The notes under the pieces: generated by a model
Told to the model about the DNA's origin: nothing
Databases searched by the model: none
Seen by the model: only the letters and a program-made list of their open reading frames with translations
Translations under genes and position numbers: made by a program
In this document: positions 16,520-18,524 of the stretch, piece after piece
Numbering within the stretch: the stretch's first letter is position 1
How the letters are laid out: each line of letters opens with the position of its first letter
NCBI GenBank assembly: GCA_012519285.1
Contig: JAAYQN010000060.1
Coordinates: 1 to 42,739, forward strand
Direction of reading: 5' to 3'
DNA: 42,739 nt
Origin: Clostridiales bacterium
GTDB taxonomy: Bacteria; Bacillota; Clostridia; Christensenellales; HGM11417

Positions 16520-17056
16520 TCACGCCTCCAGCACCTTTGCTCTCACCAGCGCTTTCCTTAAGCCTATCGCCGCGAAGAAATCTATGTTGCTGTGGATGAA
16601 GGTGCCCGCGCCGCAGCTTATGAGAATGTATTCAATAACAGGCATATCGGCAAGCGACAGCCATACTGCCGCATACACCGCCAAAATCTCAAACAGCGAG
16701 TGCACGGCGCCGACCGCAACCGACACTATCGCCATGTTTTTGATGTTGCTTAAGGGCAGCTTTTTCTGCAAAACTATGAGCAGCAGCACGAAGAATATGT
16801 GGCTGGCCGCGCGCAGCACGGTGATGATGTTACCTGTGGATATGAAGGCGATAGCGGTGCCGATCGTTGCGAACACGCCCACGTAAGGCGATATGAGGGC
16901 CCCGAGCATCAGGAATACGTGGGAAAGGGGAGTAAAAGACCAGAACCCGAGGTCCACCTTGAAGTTGAACGTAGTCATAACCCAGATGTAGAGGACGCTC
17001 AACGCAACCAGCATGGCGGAGAGCGCTATCTTCTTTGTCTTATTCATCTCTATCAT
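16520..17056 (-). CDS. ECF transporter S-component-like integral membrane protein
   Basis: 178 aa, about six hydrophobic helices; KKIALSAMLVALSVLYI start and PLSHVFLMLGALISPYVGVF typical of S components; substrate not assignable. Confidence 0.6.
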   Translation of the reverse strand: MIEMNKTKKIALSAMLVALSVLYIWVMTTFNFKVDLGFWSFTPLSHVFLMLGALISPYVGVFATIGTAIAFISTGNIITVLRAASHIFFVLLLIVLQKKLPLSNIKNMAIVSVAVGAVHSLFEILAVYAAVWLSLADMPVIEYILISCGAGTFIHSNIDFFAAIGLRKALVRAKVLEA

Positions 17057-17093: not shown

Positions 17094-17303
17094 TCAATGC
17101 CCGCAGCTGCAGCCTTCCCCGCAGCCCGAACAGTCCCCGCTGCAGCCCCCTCCCCCTTTGCCCAGGGAGATTAAGCATTTGCCGGTATAGTTCATGCCCG
17201 AAAGTTCGCCGCAGTTCGGGCACCTTTCGCTCGCCACGTCCCGCTTTACCAGCTTCTCGAACACGTTGCCGCAGGAAGGGCACTTGAACTCCTTTAAGGG
17301 CAT
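17094..17303 (-). CDS. FmdB-family zinc ribbon protein with Cys-rich tail
   Basis: MPLKEFKCPSCGNVFEKL...CPNCGE...GGGGCSGDCSGCGEGCSCGH. Confidence 0.85.
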   Translation of the reverse strand: MPLKEFKCPSCGNVFEKLVKRDVASERCPNCGELSGMNYTGKCLISLGKGGGGCSGDCSGCGEGCSCGH

Positions 17304-18242
17304 CTATTTTATCTTCCTCGTCTTGTTGATTAGGAGCAGCGCAAAGCAGACCGTGAGCGGGAGGGTTATGGCGAGCACGAGCCAGAAGCCCGCGGGATTG
17401 CCCCCAAAGGGCACGGGCACGTTCATTCCCCACAGGCTGGCGATCAGGGTGGGCAGCGACATGATAATGGTAATGATGGTAAGCAGCTTCATCACTATGT
17501 TGACGTTGTTGTTTATTATTGAGGCAAAGGCGTCCATCGTACCAGTCAATATCTCCCTGTAGATGTTACACATCTCTATCGCTTGCTTGTTTTCTATGAT
17601 GAGGTCGTTTAAAAGGTCCATCTCCTCGGGCATGTCTTTGAGTTCCTCGAACTTGGCGATCTTCTCTATGACAACCTGGTTGGCCTTTGAGGCGGTGGAA
17701 AAGTATACAAGCGATTTCTCGAGCTCGAGCAATTGGAAGATCTCCTTGTTCTTCATGGATTTCTGCAGCTCGCTCTGAATCCTGTGGCTGGTCTTGTCTA
17801 TCTGCTTAAGGTAGGACAAAAACTTAACGGAGTTTCTGTAAAGTATCTGAAGTATGAATTTAAGAGGCCTTTCGGTTGAGAAACTCTTTATGCGACCCTC
17901 GGCGAAATCGTTTGTTATTGAGGTTTCCTTGAGGCAGACGGTGACGAAATTCCCTTCGCCCGTTATTATGGAAAGCGGAATTGTGTTGTATACGTAATTG
18001 TCGTTCTCTTCCTCGATTATGGGAATGTCGACGATTATCATTCGGAAATTGCCTTCGTAATCGATGTGGGCAGATTCCTCTTCGTCGAGGGAGGCCTTAA
18101 GCATGTCATCCGGTATTCCGGTCTGCTTGGAGACGAGGTCGACCTCGTTGTCGGAAGGGTTTATCATGTCAATCCAGGTGTTTTTCTGAATGCTCTCAAG
18201 GGTCATAAGCGTTCCGCCGACGCTCTTTCTTACCGTAATCAT
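17304..18242 (-). CDS. corA: CorA-family magnesium/divalent cation transporter
   Basis: C-terminal two TM helices with GMNVPVPF (GMN motif). Confidence 0.92.
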   Translation of the reverse strand: MITVRKSVGGTLMTLESIQKNTWIDMINPSDNEVDLVSKQTGIPDDMLKASLDEEESAHIDYEGNFRMIIVDIPIIEEENDNYVYNTIPLSIITGEGNFVTVCLKETSITNDFAEGRIKSFSTERPLKFILQILYRNSVKFLSYLKQIDKTSHRIQSELQKSMKNKEIFQLLELEKSLVYFSTASKANQVVIEKIAKFEELKDMPEEMDLLNDLIIENKQAIEMCNIYREILTGTMDAFASIINNNVNIVMKLLTIITIIMSLPTLIASLWGMNVPVPFGGNPAGFWLVLAITLPLTVCFALLLINKTRKIK

Positions 18243-18420
18243 TTGAGTCCTACCTCCTGCCTTAAATTAATAAAGTGCGGAAGAACCGCACCTTAAACTA
18301 AGGCTTGGAAAGGCAAGCTCAAACCTCAGATTAAGGCAGTTCCCGCGTATTTTCATTCCTTCGACTGTTACCTAAAGGGTCTTCCATGACTCTCTCCTAT
18401 CGGTACATTAAGACAATTTT
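18243..18420 (-). promoter_or_regulatory. candidate structured regulatory leader RNA upstream of corA
   Basis: Overlapping alternative stems: CCTTAATCTGAGG/CCTTAGTTTAAGG, AAGGTGCGG-TTCTT-CCGCACTTT with T-rich tail, and CTGCCTTAA/TTAAGGCAG next to GGAGG. Confidence 0.5.
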
Positions 18421-18524
18421 ACTACAATTATACGGTTTAAGCAACTGTTTATTCACAAAAAAAATATATATTTGCGGTGAGTTATGGTATAATTATAGGG
18501 AGAAATCGTTTCGGAGGAAAAAGC

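Follow-up and report, generated by a model that had tools for sequence, protein, structure and literature searches.

The leader of the corA gene described here is probably a translation-dependent, Mg2+-sensing leader-peptide attenuator of the MgtL kind, equipped with an intrinsic terminator. The window, i.e. the whole stretch of DNA that was analyzed, comprises 42,739 nt of a Clostridiales bacterium (GCA_012519285.1, contig JAAYQN010000060.1, positions 1 to 42,739). In Escherichia coli and Salmonella, early acidic residues interspersed with proline in MgtL cause the ribosome to drop off at low Mg2+, which turns mgtA on, and completed translation of MgtL turns mgtA off (PMC11282234). This drop-off is a case of intrinsic ribosome destabilization (IRD) and depends on Mg2+ (PMC9718836); MgtL, MgtQ and IRD are all established experimentally (PMC11282234, PMC8092293, PMC9718836). 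In the literature searched, sensing of Mg2+ through ribosome destabilization by a nascent peptide is documented only for the enterobacterial mgtA and mgtB genes and suspected for corA. The principle is known; in the papers searched we came across no account of it from Bacillota, upstream of corA and mgtE and coupled to intrinsic terminators. For the window, we infer drop-off at low Mg2+, the direction of regulation and the ligand.

Gene neighborhood and promoter

The genes and signals surrounding the leader are the following.

17304..18242, minus strand: corA, the gene proposed to be regulated, encoding a 312-aa CorA-family transporter (PF01544, E=3.6e-51; GMN motif in SLWGMNVPVP)
17094..17303, minus strand: fmdB, encoding a 69-aa FmdB-family zinc-ribbon protein (TIGR02605, 35.4 bits; PF09723, E=1.9e-10)
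16520..17056, minus strand: gene of a 178-aa protein, without match in Pfam or NCBIfam
18253..18258, minus strand: corA Shine-Dalgarno sequence AGGAGG, paired in the predicted full-length RNA
18416..18444, minus strand: candidate promoter TTGCTT-17-TAAAAT, with the same spacing in the related locus L083 (TTGCAA-17-TAGAAT)

This CorA is the only one found in the source genome, which is 86% complete and in which a second copy was sought and not found; its substrate is assumed to be Mg2+. CorA-family proteins can also carry Co2+ or Ni2+. The start of fmdB abuts the corA stop and the two genes are likely co-transcribed; the gene of the 178-aa protein probably belongs to the same operon, and its assignment as an ECF-S component in the earlier note is left unconfirmed by the Pfam and NCBIfam models. 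The TATAAT box that the earlier note placed upstream of the leader is present at 18432-18427 but lacks a -35 element and lies inside the spacer of an alternative promoter, TTGCTT-17-TAAAAT at 18444-18416, which is the probable promoter of the leader as judged by comparison with L083. A scan for consensus promoters detected none in the window leader.

An ORF in place of an aptamer

The earlier note took the leader for riboswitch-like and suggested that about 90 nt of its upstream part could form an aptamer. This region turned out to be an unannotated 18-codon ORF with its own Shine-Dalgarno sequence and the predicted product MEDPLGNSRRNENTRELP.

18392..18398, minus strand: leader-ORF Shine-Dalgarno sequence AGGAGAG, a few nucleotides before the ATG
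18331..18387, minus strand: leader ORF of 18 codons, MEDPLGNSRRNENTRELP*, with equivalents in 47 of 81 corA leaders
18376..18384, minus strand: codons 2-4, Glu-Asp-Pro (E2 D3 P4), a putative ribosome-destabilizing motif comparable to the EPDP of MgtL (PMC11282234), in 56 ORFs conserved for the acidic residue at codon 2 and for Pro at codons 4-5

It reads AGGAGAG-AGTC-ATG GAA GAC CCT TTA GGT AAC AGT CGA AGG AAT GAA AAT ACG CGG GAA CTG CCT TAA and is presumably translated. Two traits of MgtL-like leaders are found together, a short ORF with a Shine-Dalgarno sequence that leads into a Mg2+ transporter gene and, in its first codons, acidic residues and proline conserved as amino acids. MEDPLGNSRRNENTRELP lacks the run of codons for a single amino acid, tied to the regulated gene, that an amino-acid attenuator of the trp or his kind would have.

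A metal-sensing riboswitch with its aptamer at about 18328-18400 would account for the strong competing helices of the leader and for the metal transporter downstream. We nevertheless hold it to be highly improbable, and the aptamer reading was rejected, since the region is an ORF conserved as a peptide start, Rfam offers no match and homologous leaders keep their amino acids with almost no nucleotide conservation. Within the window, only tRNAs matched Rfam at gathering score, and in a second Rfam search the best hit (E=1.6) fell far under its gathering score. In keeping with the earlier note, which did not recognize the leader as an M-box or another class, no riboswitch or leader family matched, the M-box model RF00380 included. 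With the window leader as query, nhmmer and blastn returned almost no nucleotide similarity from about 140 other corA and mgtE leaders, the best match being L083 (E = 0.016). The conservation anticipated upstream of related corA genes exists at the level of protein but not of RNA.

Leader ORFs before other corA genes

Short ORFs preceded by a Shine-Dalgarno sequence were scanned in 81 leaders, those of 80 CorA homologues (46-56% identical) and that of the window, and labeled when codon 2 was D/E, codons 3-6 included a P and the ORF lay within 320 nt of the corA start. Such an ORF occurs in 47 of the 81 leaders against a mean of 1.75 in dinucleotide shuffles (40 rounds, maximum 6); it is found in none of them on the reverse strand, and of 140 other genes taken from these loci only 3 are preceded by one. 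A wider sample of Bacillota corA leaders gave 13 out of 29, against 1.0 in shuffles. Mapped with a looser label (71 rows) onto a tree of 112 CorA proteins, the ORF is scattered across Bacillota and undergoes 17 changes; the homologues do not count as independent samples. A Clostridium clade of 12 lacks the ORF, as does Methanosarcina.

The 56 ORFs share the consensus M-D-x-[D/G]-P-x-[S/N]-R, in which an acidic residue (D/E) at codon 2 and proline at codons 4-5 are conserved; conservation stops at about codon 8. Positions 1 and 2 of codon 2 are invariant while position 3 varies (0.55), and codon 5 draws on all four Pro codons. Because the amino acids are kept and the third codon positions are free, selection acts on the start of the peptide and not on an RNA aptamer. 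Further versions of the peptide include MDSDPGGS and MDSGPLPNSYRKK.

A variant ORF of 10-16 codons, MDSSDGS, MDGSDDS or MDLSDSS, acidic and devoid of an early proline, ends 34-49 nt before corA in five leaders (L003, L004, L006, L018, L020) that belong to a clade of uncultured Clostridia and Christensenella-like genomes. Ten corA leaders from Clostridium sensu stricto (L024, L026, L046, L048, L053, L054, L060, L073, L075, L080) have neither a leader ORF nor an M-box. The M-box was considered as a substitute where corA leaders lack the ORF and rejected, being plausible in the corA leader of L021 only.

Competing structures and the predicted switch

Folding delimits the following elements downstream of, and overlapping with, the leader ORF.

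18320..18346, minus strand: antiterminator 5' arm (folding), overlapping the leader ORF over its final five codons plus stop
18277..18307, minus strand: antiterminator 3' arm (folding), including the entire 5' arm of the terminator
18271..18295, minus strand: intrinsic terminator TAAGGTGCGG-TTCTT-CCGCACTTTA, then TTAATTTA (folding, shuffles and homologous hairpins in L082 and L083)

Three competing pairings had been proposed. The first, CCTTAATCTGAGG with CCTTAGTTTAAGG, is real (12/13 pairs, -18.4 kcal/mol); when the RNA is folded only as far as the terminator, the base of this pairing is extended, CGCGGGAACTG pairing with TGCGGTTC...CCGCG, so that the whole 5' arm of the terminator is covered and the antiterminator spans 18346-18277. 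The second, the terminator hairpin, proved real as well (18295-18271, -13.7 kcal/mol), with a poor U tract (TTTATTAATTT); 3 terminator-like sites were counted against 0.5 expected from shuffles. In two relatives of the same family, L082 and L083, the same hairpin GGTGCGG...CCGC stands in the same position behind a leader ORF, with a perfect T run (GGTGCGGAATTTTTCCGCGCC-GTTTTTTTT and GGTGCGGTTTTTTCCGCACC-TTTTTTT, respectively), and the window terminator is therefore taken as its homologue. The third pairing, the supposed lock on the corA Shine-Dalgarno sequence, is a perfect 9-bp complement but has a probability of about 0 in the folds and was rejected as the main lock; in the full-length RNA the Shine-Dalgarno sequence is hidden in a different helix. 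The attenuator design itself was upheld, antiterminator and terminator being mutually exclusive, most strongly in the window and its family. The leader ORF ends inside the switching stem, its final codons and stop, CTGCCTTAA, forming the segment common to the first and third pairings.

The effect of a translating ribosome was simulated codon by codon by blocking a footprint made up of the 15 nt before the A-site codon and 13 nt beginning with its first base. With the ribosome anywhere in codons 2-10 of the window ORF, the terminator has a probability of 0.01; this value climbs through codons 11-14 and reaches 0.96-0.98 from codon 15 to the stop; in this model, a ribosome lost early would result in read-through and one that finishes would result in termination, which is the in silico behavior expected of an MgtL-like leader. 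Over the 12 leaders bearing a terminator, the mean shift of this probability is +0.41, against -0.01 when the intervening sequence is shuffled (maximum replicate mean 0.12). The switch is predicted in 7 of them (the window, L082, L083, L063, L069, L043, L045), does not appear in the folding of L017, L025, L059 and L070, and is reversed in L038.

The proposed mechanism would operate as follows. RNA polymerase would transcribe the leader and a ribosome would initiate on the 18-codon ORF. With ample Mg2+, the ribosome would pass Glu-Asp-Pro, reach codons 12-18 and the stop, and mask the 5' arm of the antiterminator; the terminator would then form and corA would be off. When Mg2+ is scarce, the ribosome would be lost within the first codons, the antiterminator (18346-18277) would sequester the 5' arm of the terminator and corA would be transcribed, probably together with fmdB and the next gene.

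It could be argued that the switch is mainly translational, with the ORF ribosome opening or closing the corA Shine-Dalgarno sequence and the hairpin 18271-18295 hardly terminating. The weak U tract would fit, and so would the hidden Shine-Dalgarno sequence of the full-length RNA, whose accessibility rises from 0.09 to 0.33 when the end of the ORF is blocked; moreover, many ORF-bearing relatives that lack a terminator have hairpins hiding the Shine-Dalgarno sequence instead. Both family relatives, however, retain the terminator, each with a perfect U tract, and it is on the terminator that the predicted switch acts, and we regard this explanation as rather unlikely for the window. Since the full RNA hides the corA Shine-Dalgarno sequence, a translational layer may still be added to the attenuator. 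Overall, no intrinsic terminator could be detected in 44 of the 58 leaders bearing the ORF, and blocking the ORF end in these 58 changed Shine-Dalgarno accessibility without consistency (more than 0.2 higher in 9, lower in 1); a Shine-Dalgarno sequestration switch common to all leaders was rejected on account of this inconsistency. Given the scarcity of clear terminators and the directionless accessibility test, most ORF-bearing leaders probably rely on a second expression platform or on Rho.

Comparison with characterized leaders

The closest resemblance is to the MgtL/mgtA leader, where a very short ORF also stands at the beginning of a Mg2+-importer leader, with acidic residues and proline at codons 2-5 followed by basic residues and with the same rule, predicted for the window, that completed translation means off. 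The window peptide can be aligned to E. coli MgtL as ME-DPLGNS-RR, although its motif of two acidic residues and one proline is weaker than EPDP. The two systems differ by phylum, by transporter (CorA and MgtE versus a P-type ATPase) and by the mode of termination, which is predicted to be intrinsic in the window and is Rho-dependent for mgtA (PMC11282234).

CorL likewise is encoded in the corA leader of Salmonella and E. coli and its translation lowers corA expression (PMC11552253), but it contains few acidic or proline residues (PMC11552253) and its leader is Rho-dependent. That leader is the 'corA motif' of Stav et al. 2019, whose reported occurrence is limited to Gammaproteobacteria and related metagenomes (PMC6429828). 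In MgtQ, the product of an ORF between mgtC and mgtB of Salmonella, Asp2 and Glu5 destabilize the ribosome and alternative stems set the output (PMC8092293); MgtQ differs in affecting translation of mgtB within an operon instead of a terminator. The M-box (ykoK, RF00380) is a Mg2+-responsive leader of Mg2+ transporters in Bacillota as well, with an RNA aptamer and no peptide, and is missing from the window; neither an M-box nor MgtE was found in the source genome (86% complete).

Leader ORFs before mgtE and the nature of the signal

A gene-blind search of 291 genomes of the class for a Shine-Dalgarno sequence followed by MD-x-[D/G]-P returned 30 loci, many of which lie inside long genes. The true short ORFs with a strong Shine-Dalgarno sequence (GGAGGT or GGAGTG) precede either corA (7 loci) or mgtE (L091-L093 and L101, identified by Pfam MgtE_N, CBS and MgtE). 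In a directed sample of mgtE leaders, the labeled ORF was found in 17 out of 30 against 0.4 in shuffles (maximum 4), and in 21 when ORFs overlapping the gene start or further away are counted too. Several of the peptides resemble each other and MgtL, as illustrated by MDSGPLPNSYRKKSNN before mgtE of L121, MDSSPLPNSKRRKLNSREL before corA of L016 and MEDPLGNSRRNENTREL in the window. What the otherwise unrelated families CorA and MgtE have in common is Mg2+, and this suggests Mg2+ as the signal.

The peptide could instead report another failure of elongation at acidic or proline codons, through EF-P, an EttA-like ABC-F protein, charged tRNA, or Co2+/Ni2+ transported by CorA. The possible Co2+/Ni2+ transport by CorA-family proteins and the metal-binding zinc ribbon encoded by the neighboring fmdB are compatible with such a signal. 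EttA indeed acts on MgtL via acidic residues (PMC11282234) and the mgtP leader senses charged tRNA-Pro (PMC8092293). tRNA charging is a poor fit, as the Pro codons are single or few and codons for one amino acid do not form a run. The same start is moreover found before mgtE, which encodes an unrelated Mg2+ transporter and is often under M-box control, and this makes Mg2+ the simplest shared signal. A signal other than Mg2+ thus seems unlikely.

The recurrence of an acidic-proline start before two unrelated families of Mg2+ transporters in many Bacillota suggests that magnesium is gauged by ribosome drop-off. We incline to the view that Bacillota possess a widespread and so far undescribed translation-based Mg2+ sensor, consisting of drop-off peptides upstream of corA and mgtE that are coupled either to intrinsic terminators or to hairpins hiding the Shine-Dalgarno sequence and that stand, in some mgtE leaders, behind an M-box. 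No earlier description of corA or mgtE leader peptides in Firmicutes was encountered in the literature searched, in which subscription journals are thinly covered, so that novelty is unproven. If true for CorA and MgtE across Bacillota, measurement of Mg2+ through ribosome stability would be general in bacteria, having evolved independently of Proteobacteria or being shared with them, and the corA and mgtE leaders devoid of a riboswitch would be explained.

An M-box precedes 9 of the 20 mgtE loci scanned. In L119, L126 and L128, it is followed after about 70-95 nt by an acidic-proline ORF that ends 13-17 nt before mgtE, so that a single leader combines two unlike Mg2+ devices. In the mgtE leaders of L101, L121, L123, L125, L126 and L128, a stretch comprising the ribosome binding site and the ORF start (e.g. 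GGTGGTAATATGG) pairs with another in the second half of the ORF (e.g. CCATAATTGCCACC), and in some of them this second stretch can also pair directly upstream of the mgtE Shine-Dalgarno sequence; these predicted pairings look like a 1:2 versus 2:3 switch such as proposed for MgtQ. Finally, L041 carries on the minus strand, at about 3352, a short ORF with a Shine-Dalgarno sequence, MEGDPRGRGL, 113 nt before a gene encoding 181 aa, a possible further target.
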